This document shows, in pieces, positions 24,298 through 30,452 of a stretch of DNA of 64,000 bases. The stretch comes from Promethearchaeota archaeon. GTDB lineage: Archaea; Asgardarchaeota; Lokiarchaeia; Sigyniarchaeales; SOKP01. The notes below the pieces were generated by a model, which worked only from the letters and a program-made list of their open reading frames with translations, ran no database searches and was not told the origin of the DNA. The stretch is taken from assembly GCA_011364925.1 (NCBI GenBank), contig RDOA01000017.1:1-64000 (forward strand), given 5' to 3'. Position 1 is the first letter of the stretch. Each line of letters opens with the position of its first letter. The position numbers and the translations under genes were made by a program.

Positions 24298-25005
24298 ATG
24301 ACTGAAGCATTATACATGAAAGATTCCTACTTAAAACAATGGGACGCTCAAGTCGTTTCTGTGAAGGACGACAAATATATTGTCCTAGATAAAACCGCGT
24401 TCTACCCTAAAGGAGGAGGTCAACCATGGGACGAGGGCTATATCGTTAAAAACGGCGAAAAATTCAATGTTGTCTATGTAGGAAAGTTCTCGGGCGAAAT
24501 AAGTCACGAAGTAGATAAACCTGGATTAAAAGAAGGGGATACTGTGTCGTGCGAACTCGATTGGGATCGGCGATATACCTACATGCGATACCATACAGCT
24601 TGTCATCTCGTCTCAAATATCCTATATCGACGAGCTAACGCGAAAATCACGGGCAATCAAATTGAATTAGATAAAGCTCGAATGGATTTCTCTATGGAAG
24701 ATTACTCACCAGAAAAGTTGCAGGCATTTGTAGACGAATCAAACGAAATCATTAAAACAAACCTTCCAGTTACAATTGATACAATGTCTCGAGCAGCAGT
24801 CTTAGAAGAACCCGAACTCGCACGATTAGCTATGGGGTTACCTAAAAATTTACAAGAGTTCCGCATAGTAAAGATTGGCGATATCGATAAACAGGTCGAC
24901 GGTGGAACCCATATTAACAATCTTAACGAGATTGGGGAAATTGAGATGACCAAAACGGTAAACAAAGGTAAGAATAATAGGAGATTGTATTTCGTTATTA
25001 AATAA
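24298..25005 (+). CDS. alaX: Alanyl-tRNA editing protein (AlaX family)
   Basis: 'KTAFYPKGGGQPWDEG', HxxxH 'RYHTACHLVSNIL', 'VDGGTHINNLNEIGEI'. Confidence 0.9.
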   Translation: MTEALYMKDSYLKQWDAQVVSVKDDKYIVLDKTAFYPKGGGQPWDEGYIVKNGEKFNVVYVGKFSGEISHEVDKPGLKEGDTVSCELDWDRRYTYMRYHTACHLVSNILYRRANAKITGNQIELDKARMDFSMEDYSPEKLQAFVDESNEIIKTNLPVTIDTMSRAAVLEEPELARLAMGLPKNLQEFRIVKIGDIDKQVDGGTHINNLNEIGEIEMTKTVNKGKNNRRLYFVIK

Positions 25006-25050: not shown

Positions 25051-25103
25051 GTTCCATTGCGATTCGGAACTCCCACGGAGGTTTCGTAATAAAAACTATA
25101 AAT
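25051..25103 (+). promoter_or_regulatory. Operator (GTTCC-N10-GGAAC-N10-GTTTC) plus TATA box, cassette copy A
   Basis: GTTCC 25051-25055, GGAAC 25066-25070, GTTTC 25081-25085, ACTATAAA 25096-25103; same spacings in copies B and C. Confidence 0.8.
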
Positions 25104-25125
25104 GGAACTGAAACATCATTTTATT

Positions 25126-25146
25126 TGATTTTCCATTTGAAAATCA
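25126..25146 (+). other. 5' leader stem-loop of cassette A
   Basis: TGATTTT-CCATTTG-AAAATCA, perfect 7-bp stem about 23 nt after the TATA box. Confidence 0.6.
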
Positions 25147-25177
25147 CATGAAAATTTAACAAAAAGAATTGAGAAAA

Positions 25178-25972
25178 ATGAAAAATTCAAAAAAAACCCA
25201 GCTATTAATTGTATCCGTTGTAGGAATCCTTTTGTTTAGCTTTCTTCCAACAGTACAAGGCTACGGTCGAAGAAGAACTAATATAAATATTCGACCTATC
25301 GAAGATTGGCTTGATAATAATCCATATGGTGCTGGAGCGTATTATATGACAGGATATGTAGGGAGTGATACAAACGATCATTATTACTGGACATGGTTTT
25401 TCGCAGTTACAGAGTTGTTTGAGGGTGAGGCATTTGAATATAGCGGTTATGTCAAGGAAAAAGTTTTGCTCGACGGAGCTATAGAGATTACCGTGAACTT
25501 GTATGTAAAAGATATGGCTGTAGAGTTATACGACAATAACGCTCCTGGTGATCCTATATGGACTTTTGATTACATGGGGCAAATAGTTTTCCAAGGCAGA
25601 ATCGATTACTATTTTCAAATAAAATTTACCCTTGACGCTGAATACGATGGTTACGCACCATTTGATATTGAACCTGGAACAAGAGAAGCAGGCTGTGCTC
25701 TCCCCTCTTCTGAGGCGATAATAGATATACCTGAACAGATGGGGATTCATTTAGAATCAATATTACTAATTGCAACAGGTGAAGGAAACACATTGATGCC
25801 AGGTTGGTATTGGTGGATGTACGATCCAGAAGATCCTACTACATTACCAGTACCAGATGGAGGAACCGCGAAATTATTCATGTTTCACTATGCTCACTTT
25901 GGACCAGATAATCCTTTAGTTTGGCCTTATGGATCATCAGGATTCAAGTTTGCCATAGTTAATCTTTACTAA
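25178..25972 (+). CDS. Secreted protein, aromatic-rich, unknown family
   Basis: Signal peptide 'MKNSKKTQLLIVSVVGILLFSFLPTVQG'; ATG 25178 preferred over TTG 25169. Confidence 0.8.
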   Translation: MKNSKKTQLLIVSVVGILLFSFLPTVQGYGRRRTNINIRPIEDWLDNNPYGAGAYYMTGYVGSDTNDHYYWTWFFAVTELFEGEAFEYSGYVKEKVLLDGAIEITVNLYVKDMAVELYDNNAPGDPIWTFDYMGQIVFQGRIDYYFQIKFTLDAEYDGYAPFDIEPGTREAGCALPSSEAIIDIPEQMGIHLESILLIATGEGNTLMPGWYWWMYDPEDPTTLPVPDGGTAKLFMFHYAHFGPDNPLVWPYGSSGFKFAIVNLY

Positions 25973-26040
25973 TAGGAGAGCGGAATAGGTAATAATTAGG
26001 AGAGATAATTTCATCGAGGGTCGAAATCTTTAATCAGCAT

Positions 26041-26110
26041 ATAGAACTGGAGAGAAAGCGGTTCGAATATAGCCTAACCGAAAAAATCTTCCTTTTCTAT
26101 ATTTTTTTTT
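26041..26110 (+). terminator. Structured 3' hairpin plus T-tract, cassette A
   Basis: ATAGAA-CT-GGA (26041-26051) pairs with TCC-TT-TTCTAT (26090-26100); inner CGGTT 26059-26063 / AACCG 26076-26080; T-rich tract follows. Confidence 0.65.
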
Positions 26111-26162
26111 TTACTTCATAACTATTATCCTGAACCTCTAGAAAGTGTTTTCACTCGTCATA

Positions 26163-26215
26163 GTTCCAATGTGATTCGGAACTTCCATGAATGTTCCAAA
26201 ATAAAAACTATATAT
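26163..26215 (+). promoter_or_regulatory. Operator (GTTCC-N10-GGAAC-N10-GTTCC) plus TATA box, cassette copy B
   Basis: GTTCC 26163-26167, GGAAC 26178-26182, GTTCC 26193-26197, ACTATATA 26208-26215. Confidence 0.8.
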
Positions 26216-26237
26216 GGAATTGAATCGTATATTTCTA

Positions 26238-26450
26238 GTGATTTTCCATTTTGAAATCACACGAGAATTTAACAATAAGAACTAAGAAAAAAGGTTTATC
26301 ACGGTAATTCACTCGGCAAAATATTTAATAAGTAAGGAGAGAAAATTTCAAAGAGGGTTGAAATCTTTTATCCGTATATAGAACTGGAGGCTGGAGGGAT
26401 TTGCGATGGCCTAGTCCGCACTTAACCTCCTTTTCTATATATCTTTTTTC
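26238..26450 (+). ncRNA. Predicted ORF-less transcript of cassette B (ncRNA or remnant of a deleted secreted-protein gene)
   Basis: 5' stem GTGATTT 26238-26244 / AAATCAC 26254-26260; 3' stem ATATAGAA-CT-GGAGG (26376-26390) / CCTCC-TT-TTCTATAT (26426-26440); no substantial ORF between. Confidence 0.5.
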
Positions 26451-26554
26451 TTATTCTTGTTAATTCTCACTACCACCACAAATATTAAATAGAAAATCGA
26501 TCTAATCTGATCATTAATCCAATTTTTATGCTATATTTTTAGAATAAAGAGATT

Positions 26555-28321
26555 TTGAATATGAGTACAGAGCATAAAACACCAAAGAAGAGAGATTCAT
26601 CAAAAAAAACCCTTAAAACTAAATTAAAAGAAATAAGAAAACCTCTTTTTGCTGGTAGTATAATCATTGTAGCAGCAGTAACTGGAATTATTGGAGGGTT
26701 TTTTTTTATTAATCAACCTCAAATTGTGGAGAAAGTTTTGATTTGTGGGACTCAAGACAATGTATTTAATTTAGATCCACTTTACGACCCTCATCTCCCC
26801 AGTATCAGATTAATTGACCAAGTTGCTGAAGGATTATTTGACTATGATCAATCTAAAGCAGAAACTCCGCTAATATATAACTTGGCAACAGAAGGGGAAT
26901 GGAGTCCCGACTACTTAAATTTTACATGCTCGCTAAGAAGAGGAGTTCAATTTCACGATGGAACTCCGTTTAATGCTGAAGCTGTTAAATGGAGTTTTGA
27001 CCGAATAAACAGATTTATGGAAATAATGCCTTACGATATAATCCGATACTGGGTTTATATGTATACTAATTCTGACGGTCACCCAATTATTAATAGAACC
27101 GAGGTTTTGGATACCTACACTGTAAGATTTGTATTAAATAAACCTTATATTCCTTTTCCAGATTTATTAACCGCTCGGTCATCCTATATATTATCACCAA
27201 CATCTACCCCATCTGATGAATTTATACCTTTAAATACTAACAACCTTATCGGAACTGGACCTTATAAACTATATTCTTGTATTAGTAATGTCCATGATAC
27301 TCAATACTATTATTGCTTCAATTCAACCTTAAAAGCTAATCGAAACTATTGGAATGGAGAACCGTATTTTGATAAAATAATATTTATACCATTGAGGTAT
27401 CTTAATCTCACGAAAGCGCTGGAGTCTGAACAACTTTCTTTTTCATTTATATTTGATCCTGAAACTCTTCAGATGTTTAAAGACACACCTGGGATGACGC
27501 TTCTTAATAAAACGGACTTAACTGTGGCGTTCATTGGAATGAATAACGATGTAATGAATGTAACGATGAGAAAAGCTATCTCGTATGCATTTAATTACAC
27601 TTATTATTTTGATGTATTAAATTACGGTGAACAATTTGTGGAGAGAGCAAGATCACCGCTTTCAAAAGAAATGCGTTACTCAAACTGGGAAGCTTTCAGT
27701 ATTCCTTACTATAATATTACATTAGCTAGACAGACGTTAATCAATGCAAATTGGAATGGAACAACTGGTTTAACCGCAAATGATGATACAAGCCCAGGAA
27801 ATCCTTGGGAACTAAAAGCTCTCAGTAATTTCCCTTTAGCAACTTATAATATTACATATCCTAATGATAGTTGGAGGATGGGAAATTATTCGCTTGAAAT
27901 AGCTAGAAATCTAAGACAAATCGGAGTAAAAGGGATACTTGATGCTGTCCCTCGATTGGAATGGTATTATAAAGGGTTGGCAGGTGAACTCGACTTCGAT
28001 TTAACAGGATATTATCCTACACTTAACGATCCTGTGGATATGCTAAATCCACAATATTCTAATAAAGGCGATGGTTCTTTTAATATAATTAATTTTAACG
28101 ATACTTTAGTTCAGCAATGGTTAGATGCTGCGATCGAAGAACCTAATACGATAGCTAGAAAGCAATATTACTATAATATTCAAGAACGCTTGATAGAAGA
28201 GCTTTATCCTTGTGTTTGGTTGGGGTCCCCAATAACAAATACAGCTTGGGATTCCAGGATAAAAGGGATGTCGTTTGAAGGAATATTTATAAAAATCCTA
28301 TATAAGCATGGGTATTACTAA
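26555..28321 (+). CDS. ABC transporter substrate-binding protein, family 5 (peptide/nickel-type), N-terminal membrane anchor
   Basis: 'SCSLRRGVQFHDGTPFNAEAVKWSFDRI', 'NLIGTGPYKLYS', 'MRKAISYAFNY'. Confidence 0.92.
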   Translation: MNMSTEHKTPKKRDSSKKTLKTKLKEIRKPLFAGSIIIVAAVTGIIGGFFFINQPQIVEKVLICGTQDNVFNLDPLYDPHLPSIRLIDQVAEGLFDYDQSKAETPLIYNLATEGEWSPDYLNFTCSLRRGVQFHDGTPFNAEAVKWSFDRINRFMEIMPYDIIRYWVYMYTNSDGHPIINRTEVLDTYTVRFVLNKPYIPFPDLLTARSSYILSPTSTPSDEFIPLNTNNLIGTGPYKLYSCISNVHDTQYYYCFNSTLKANRNYWNGEPYFDKIIFIPLRYLNLTKALESEQLSFSFIFDPETLQMFKDTPGMTLLNKTDLTVAFIGMNNDVMNVTMRKAISYAFNYTYYFDVLNYGEQFVERARSPLSKEMRYSNWEAFSIPYYNITLARQTLINANWNGTTGLTANDDTSPGNPWELKALSNFPLATYNITYPNDSWRMGNYSLEIARNLRQIGVKGILDAVPRLEWYYKGLAGELDFDLTGYYPTLNDPVDMLNPQYSNKGDGSFNIINFNDTLVQQWLDAAIEEPNTIARKQYYYNIQERLIEELYPCVWLGSPITNTAWDSRIKGMSFEGIFIKILYKHGYY

Positions 28322-29540: not shown

Positions 29541-29593
29541 ATTCCGTTGTAATTCGGAACTCCCACGAATGTTCCATTCTATAAACTATAAAT
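29541..29593 (+). promoter_or_regulatory. Operator (ATTCC-N10-GGAAC-N10-GTTCC) plus TATA box, cassette copy C
   Basis: ATTCC 29541-29545, GGAAC 29556-29560, GTTCC 29571-29575, ACTATAAA 29586-29593. Confidence 0.8.
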
Positions 29594-29617
29594 GAGAGTA
29601 TAACAATTCTTAATATT

Positions 29618-29636
29618 GGTTATCTTTAGGATAATC
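29618..29636 (+). other. 5' leader stem-loop of cassette C
   Basis: GGTTATC-TTTAG-GATAATC, 7-bp stem with one G-U wobble. Confidence 0.5.
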
Positions 29637-29679
29637 ATTTTAAAAGAAAGCGAAATCTAAAAAAAAGAGTTTGAAAAAA

Positions 29680-30312
29680 ATGAAAAGAAATAAACTAACA
29701 AAATTGATTCTTTGTATGCTATTGATGGTTCCCGTTTTCAGCTTCATTCCAGTAGTTAACGCAAGTACACCAGAAGATTGGGGTCCTAAGCCATGGCCTT
29801 GGCAGAAAGGAGGTTTTCCTGCGTATTTCTATAAAAAAGATAACGGTAACTGGATCGGTGGTTGGCCAATGCTTGGAGTTGGCGGCGAATGGTGGATTCC
29901 ACATGACGAACCTAGTTGGTTCTATATGGGATGGCAAGTCTCAGATTTTGAGATTGAAGCAGGATGGGATCCTGGTCCAGCCTATAAGTTCCGACTTTTT
30001 GTAGATGGTGAAGAGATACATATGCAAGCATGGGCTCGACACTTTAAAGCCCAAACCGTTATGTTCCCCGACGGTGTGGAGCGAACTGTTACGTCCCGTG
30101 CGTGGTTTTGCTTTGCCAGTTTTGATCCCGATTTTTTTGGAGTTGGCGATCATGAGATCAGGTTCCAATTTCTAGTTAAAAAACCGTATATAGGCAGTGA
30201 CAGTAATGAATGGAGGTACTACGCTAATTATCAAGACGGTCCGGGTTTTATAATGTGGTACGGAGATGTAGGTTTAGAATGGAATCAAATTCACACGTTA
30301 CACGTGTATTAA
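29680..30312 (+). CDS. Secreted Trp/aromatic-rich protein, unknown family
   Basis: Signal peptide 'MKRNKLTKLILCMLLMVPVFSFIPVVNAS'; 'PEDWGPKPWPWQKGGFPAYFY'; ATG 29680 preferred over TTG 29671. Confidence 0.8.
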   Translation: MKRNKLTKLILCMLLMVPVFSFIPVVNASTPEDWGPKPWPWQKGGFPAYFYKKDNGNWIGGWPMLGVGGEWWIPHDEPSWFYMGWQVSDFEIEAGWDPGPAYKFRLFVDGEEIHMQAWARHFKAQTVMFPDGVERTVTSRAWFCFASFDPDFFGVGDHEIRFQFLVKKPYIGSDSNEWRYYANYQDGPGFIMWYGDVGLEWNQIHTLHVY

Positions 30313-30355
30313 GTAGACATATACAAAGAATTTAGTTCGTGTAATTTTAATTAAT

Positions 30356-30452
30356 ATATGGAATCGGTAGAAAAATGTTTAGATAAACAGCTTCTCGGAC
30401 AAGCATAACTAAACCAATTTTCTTCCTATTCTATTTTTTTTTTTTAATTTTG
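30356..30452 (+). terminator. Structured 3' hairpin plus T-tract, cassette C
   Basis: Imperfect outer stem GAATcGGtAGAAAA with TTTTCTTCCTATTC; inner GTTTAG 30377-30382 / CTAAAC 30409-30414 and GCTT 30390-30393 / AAGC 30401-30404; T-tract follows. Confidence 0.55.

Follow-up and report, generated by a model that had tools for sequence, protein, structure and literature searches.

A putative stand-alone small RNA gene sharing promoter and 3' module with secreted-protein genes in Lokiarchaeia

Introduction

In bacterial small RNAs derived from 3' UTRs, such as CpxQ and SroC, the mRNA 3' end with its hairpin and U-tail is the best conserved part, and the 3'-end RNA acts apart from the protein (PMC9438474). 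In the arbitrium AimR-AimP-AimX system and related RRNPP loci, a regulator with HTH and TPR domains lies beside a secreted product, a short pro-peptide, and an operator-controlled noncoding RNA (PMC13389391). Archaeal terminators end transcripts at a U-tract with aCPSF1 and reportedly do not require an upstream hairpin (PMC8716108). A limited literature search found no described regulation by noncoding RNA in Asgard archaea.

Here we analyzed a 64,000-nucleotide stretch of a Lokiarchaeal contig (the window), which contains a short unit, cassette B, that resembles each of these systems in part. The 3' end of B, a hairpin with a U-tail, is shared with mRNAs and is conserved there, and action apart from the protein is proposed for B from its sequence. 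B differs from the bacterial RNAs in being archaeal, in having its own promoter with the operator of the mRNAs, and in that its ORF is gone; by analogy, it would work most like them. The neighborhood of B resembles the arbitrium loci in placing a candidate HTH/TPR regulator beside a secreted product and a predicted RNA: Pfam models find HTH and TPR domains in the candidate regulator, but the HTH domains are of the winged type, the setting is chromosomal, and the neighboring secreted products are proteins of ~200-320 aa, not short peptides, so the neighborhood is not classed as arbitrium. Like archaeal U-tract terminators, B ends in a U-tract, but one preceded by a long hairpin with conserved loop sequence.

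Results

Layout of the locus

The source genome G000 comprises 3.9 Mb in 112 contigs. Contig C24 carries, in this order, an AlaX-like gene, cassette A, cassette B, an SBP_5 gene, a 335-aa gene on the opposite strand, cassette C and a 132-aa gene. The features are as follows.

24298-25005: AlaX-like gene, 5'-most of the neighborhood, before cassette A
25051..26112, plus strand: cassette A, with operator, TATA and 5' hairpin as in B, secreted-protein ORF (25178-25972), 3' motif and hairpin
26163-26449 (within the piece 26163-26450): cassette B, between cassette A and the SBP_5 gene
26163..26197, plus strand: operator of B, GTTCC-N10-GGAAC-N10-GTTCC, three alternating half-sites upstream of TATA
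26208..26216, plus strand: TATA box of B (CTATATATG); operator-TATA spacing fixed in A, B and C
26239..26259, plus strand: 5' stem-loop of B, located where transcription is predicted to start; the G011 and G016 copies lack it
26260..26291, plus strand: leader of B; its homology to the cassette A 5' UTR extends as far as the A start codon
26292..26334, plus strand: spacer of B, unconserved, in the position of the cassette A ORF; without a conserved sORF
26335..26373, plus strand: 3' motif of B, GGAGAG...GAGGGUUGAAAUCUUU-AUC, conserved; local hairpin weakly supported; also found 3' of other cassettes
26374..26442, plus strand: terminal hairpin of B, with UAUAUAGAA/UUCUAUAUA and GGAGG/CCUCC stems; apical part variable
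26444..26449, plus strand: U-tract of B, predicted 3' end, conserved in relatives
26485..26492, plus strand: TATA-like element (TTAAATAG) of the SBP_5 gene, separate from B; conserved in G018 by eye
26561-28321: SBP_5 gene, downstream of cassette B
29541..30445, plus strand: cassette C, with operator and TATA as in B, secreted-protein ORF (29680-30312) and canonical 3' hairpin (30351-30445)

Transcription from archaeal promoters generally starts ~30 nt after the TATA box. The 5' stem-loop of B begins ~30 nt past the first T of its TATA, at the predicted start site. The predicted RNA would extend from ~26239 to 26449 (~211 nt) and is predicted to be ~150 nt long in G011 and G016.

Cassette B compared with cassettes A and C

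The operator and TATA at fixed spacing are common to A, B and C, and the leader and trailer are common to A and B. Without gaps, B and A are 79% identical over 70 nt of operator and TATA, 87% over 53 nt of leader and 87% over 55 nt of trailer. An earlier sequence-only reading had assigned to B an operator, a TATA box, a 5' hairpin, a 3' hairpin and a T-tract, as well as a leader and trailer that align to those of A, and all of these were recovered. The distance between the two homologies, which it had put at about 75 nt, is 43 nt (26292-26334), as against 819 nt containing a 267-aa ORF in A. The operator core occurs three times in the window (in A, B and C) versus a mean of 0.00 in dinucleotide shuffles, and operator plus TATA occurs three times versus none in 200 simulated 64-kb sequences. 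The B unit contains no ORF of at least 50 aa and no sORF common to all relatives, in agreement with the earlier description of B as lacking a substantial ORF.

Conservation of B without an ORF

Searching 24 genomes of the genus with B revealed relatives in three sister species that share the AlaX locus with G000. The relative in G018 is full-length and ORF-less (70% over 317 nt), and those in G011 and G016 align in two blocks. The three copies lie downstream of AlaX in unchanged orientation; the following gene is SBP_5 in G018, as in the window, and the 132-aa gene in G011 and G016. A truncated copy of the 335-aa family was also seen beside B in G018 (L069:6288-6548, minus strand). A fifth copy was found in G067, from another genus of the same family, with operator ATTCGGAACTACCATGGA, TATA, no ORF, GAGAGA...GAGGGTTGAAATC, terminal stem and T-tract; its 5' stem differs in sequence but has complementary arms. 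Model R1, built without the G067 copy, matches it with 54 bits (E=7e-11). The gene order there is a divergent winged-HTH/TPR regulator, the ORF-less B and an ortholog of A (53% identity). The further ORF-less cassettes that the sequence-only reading had proposed to look for are present in G018, G011, G016 and G067. The intact ORF that it had envisaged at the B locus of a sister strain was not found in G018, G011 or G016, which are ORF-less too.

For all six pairs among the G000, G018, G011 and G016 copies, identity is 73-92% in the operator, 83-100% in the TATA region (26199-26222), 81-96% in the 3' motif (26333-26384) and 70-96% in the 3' arm. The spacer is 13-40% identical between G000, G018 and the G011/G016 pair, and 93% within that pair. 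Because the block identities are far above those at the four-fold sites of the adjacent AlaX gene (41-52% in five pairs, 65% in G011/G016), the parts that have been kept are the promoter and the 3' module of the RNA. In these close relatives the operator and 3' module are kept, and the 5' stem is missing from G011 and G016. Cassette B is conserved without an ORF and under selection, and it has its own promoter and 3' end signals shared with secreted-protein mRNAs. As selection has preserved the ORF-less unit across five species from two genera, B most likely encodes a small regulatory RNA.

The earlier reading had left B as either an expressed RNA of roughly 200 nt or the mark of a deleted cassette ORF. 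The conservation of an ORF-less unit in five species, with selection on operator, TATA and 3' RNA module, favors the predicted RNA over mere decay. Loss of an ORF is nevertheless the likely origin of B, as the homology between the leaders extends no further than A's start codon and as the cassette downstream of AlaX in G006 retains a signal-peptide remnant: a 52-aa ORF, consisting of a signal peptide only, reads straight into the 3' hairpin (L076:4544-4760, minus strand). This collapsed cassette is apparently an intermediate of ORF loss. The same two observations could suggest a gene-loss scar that is now drifting. Five species from two genera nevertheless retain B without an ORF, and its regulatory and RNA blocks are far more conserved than the neighboring four-fold sites, which contradicts an idle, decaying scar and makes it very unlikely.

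A tiny mRNA for a short peptide might account for a 7-codon frame with TTG or GTG start (MKSFIRI/MKSLICI), which lies inside the 3' motif in all four AlaX-locus copies and in G011 forms the end of a longer, 25-codon frame. Its start codon is missing in A, a properly spaced Shine-Dalgarno sequence is lacking, the frame is not kept in G067, and no other sORF is common to the copies. In a small-protein gene the start codon, the frame and a ribosome binding site are all expected to be conserved. This combination was not found in B, so we consider a peptide decidedly improbable.

The position of B ~110 nt upstream of the SBP_5 gene in G000, with the same kind of gene following in G018, could also mean that B serves the gene behind it as a 5' leader or attenuator. 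That gene encodes the 132-aa protein in G011 and G016 and the A-ortholog in G067, and a conserved TATA-like element of its own precedes the SBP gene. Because the downstream genes vary between loci, B is no leader dedicated to a single gene, and we regard this explanation as the least probable of those considered.

RNA structure and the 3' hairpin family

In eight leaders with the shared promoter, 53 of 56 cells of the 5' stem are paired, and compensatory double changes occur at five of the seven positions (arm-shuffle p about 0.007, with arms picked by eye); the G011 and G016 copies of B have no 5' stem. The terminal stem is nearly invariant between A and B, so covariation is uninformative there. 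The 3' hairpin structure was set by hand and then tested by sliding: 88.7% of cells pair, compared with 39-48% in the slid versions. The hairpin shows few compensatory changes and is mostly conserved as sequence, with weak covariation support, and its apical part in B departs from the canonical family. A 5-pair RNAalifold structure from an unrefined MAFFT alignment was judged wrong and was replaced by the hand-set structure. We also rejected a hairpin conserved around the GAGGG motif; because distant members break the stem and retain the sequence, GAGGG was treated as a linear motif. The GAGAGA...GAGGGTGCGAAATC motif was also seen in 5' leaders, namely those of a NosD-like gene cassette in G018 (L160:1200-1245) and a secreted-protein cassette in G017 (L073:2260-2300; GAGAGTGCGAAATC in G017).

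These features bear on whether B could be regulatory DNA. In that case B would be an additional operator site titrating the regulator, any transcript would be incidental or without function, and the 3' hairpin would serve only as terminator. The operator is indeed among the best conserved blocks and is present in several copies in the same regulon. However, the TATA, 3' motif, terminal stem and U-tract are conserved as well, and the 5' stem carries compensatory changes. Since archaeal termination has been reported to proceed without an upstream hairpin (PMC8716108), termination alone does not explain the conserved sequence of the 3' module. Regulatory DNA is thus an unlikely explanation, though one deserving more weight than a scar, a peptide or a leader. 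That the 3' motif and loop are conserved in sequence speaks for a partner that binds the predicted RNA.

Weaker matches of model R1 were found behind distant homologs of protein A, where the hairpin consensus is TATAGAAA-GGAGGAA-aGTTTAGATAAATGGCTTCTCGAATGACCACACCTAAACCAATTATCCTCC-ATTCTATATATC-T(n). A structured model, R3, built without A or B, matches A (E=8.5e-5) and B (5.2e-4) as well as the G018, G011 and G016 copies. R3 has matches in 23 of the 81 genomes of the order, all from two genera, with none in the other fifteen genera; a hairpin behind AlaX is found in five of 21 AlaX-bearing species (G000, G006, G011, G016 and G018). A search of the cassettes against 4227 Rfam families gave no match at the gathering threshold and chance-level matches only in permissive mode, and covariance models of tRNA, SRP, RNase P and other archaeal housekeeping noncoding RNAs did not match them. 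The 3' hairpin forms an RNA family that Rfam does not contain, with about 50 copies in two genera among 81 genomes. A REP-like mobile palindromic element was rejected, as the copies are few and most follow genes of a single kind at a constant spacing.

Genes preceding the 3' module

About 34 of ~53 inspected hairpins lie 20-70 nt past the stop codon of a small protein, and nearly all of these proteins have an N-terminal signal peptide by eye. They include RPIEDW/RPLSDW-type proteins, C-type proteins and further secreted families; the NosD-like proteins of G017 and G018 are separated from the hairpin by a 127-nt gap. The idea that the cassette cargo is swappable holds insofar as RPIEDW-type, C-type and NosD-like proteins precede the same 3' module, yet the presence of B is itself conserved, so the B slot is not an empty one. 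Protein A, for which structure prediction was poor (pLDDT 51), shares 24-29% identity with its homologs in the genus, as against 53% with the G067 ortholog, and the 3' sequence is still recognizable behind the homologs at 24-29%. Rab-like small GTPase genes were observed directly 3' of cassettes in two genera (L158:1959-2513 and L248:3042-3593).

A lone hairpin lies beside a divergent 3-methyladenine DNA glycosylase gene (Mpg) in G066, G064 and G007, three species of two genera (L236:2089-2187; L243:1183-1281, minus strand; L222:2106-2204, minus strand). These hairpins are antisense to their neighbors, and in G066 and G064 an inositol-phosphatase-like gene adjoins too. The Mpg-side hairpin is possibly another stand-alone RNA; the three were set aside as further stand-alone genes because their promoters are ambiguous.

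Operator distribution and candidate regulator

The operator was found upstream of A, C, the G018, G011 and G016 copies of B and the C homolog of G018, and also upstream of an LRR gene in G000 and a NosD-like gene in G016. In G000, operator and TATA precede the LRR-containing gene (L031:4119-4997, minus strand), so the regulon extends beyond secreted proteins. Exact operator matches among GTDB genomes occur in Candidatus Lokiarchaeia ABR11 and Lokiarchaeota 33X4. A relaxed search over the order, allowing two mismatches, was unspecific, with the reversed control matching widely too.

In G018, G000, G016, G004, G002, G066 and G067, an operator copy, in some cases degenerate, also lies close upstream of a regulator gene; where the start codon is reliably placed, the distance to it is 87-88 bp. 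The candidate regulator, of ~630-640 aa, has two winged-HTH domains and TPR repeats, as matched by Pfam models. The regulators of G018 (C186) and G000 (C43) have N-termini that are 80% identical, the G000 gene being cut by the contig end; at G016:C155 the regulator gene is divergent from a NosD-like gene, and further operator-side regulators are encoded at G004:C37, G002:C57, G066:C32 and G067:C54. Most genomes have several paralogs of the regulator, and the operator-bearing ones do not form one clade. The pairing of regulator and operator is therefore probable, and none of the regulators can be singled out with certainty; by its gene position, a winged-HTH/TPR regulator probably binds the predicted operator. 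The position of the site, upstream of TATA, suggests that the regulator activates. A large paralogous winged-HTH/TPR family was observed in Lokiarchaeia, often divergent from secreted-protein genes and with differing operator types (a GGAAC type and a CGATAG type); examples are L072:4358-6253, L248 (minus strand, start near 1320) and L090:4938-6842.

Discussion

On balance we favor, with some reservation, the explanation that cassette B is a stand-alone noncoding RNA gene, co-controlled with the A and C mRNAs, whose 3' module acts in trans. We infer transcription, regulator binding and its sign, the action in trans and its target from sequence features. A winged-HTH/TPR regulator would bind the operator just upstream of TATA, so that B, A and C would be switched on together. 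Transcription of B would yield an RNA of ~211 nt (~150 nt in G011/G016) composed of a start hairpin, a linear motif, a 3' hairpin and a U-tail, equivalent to a secreted-protein mRNA with its leader and 3' module minus the coding part. Most likely a product of ORF loss, B may have been kept because its 3' module works alone. The module would act in trans by competing for, or delivering, a factor that recognizes the same module in the cassette mRNAs, either an RNA-binding protein or a partner RNA. The simplest action would be competition with the mRNAs for the factor binding the 3' module.

A wider and rather doubtful extension is that B belongs to a Lokiarchaeial signaling module, arbitrium-like and independently arisen, in which a winged-HTH/TPR receptor-regulator and secreted proteins are combined with a leader/3'-module RNA that sponges or delivers a factor handling the mRNAs.

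The cassettes define a new RNA family that is restricted to one lineage and includes a putative stand-alone member, and in which the 3' UTR is better conserved than the protein preceding it. The family and this member, together with the candidate operator and regulator, are all testable from sequence. An mRNA cassette that has no ORF and is nevertheless under selection bears on the origin of regulatory RNAs from 3' UTRs. If the signaling-module extension were true, the three-part logic of arbitrium would have a counterpart in the archaeal lineage closest to eukaryotes.
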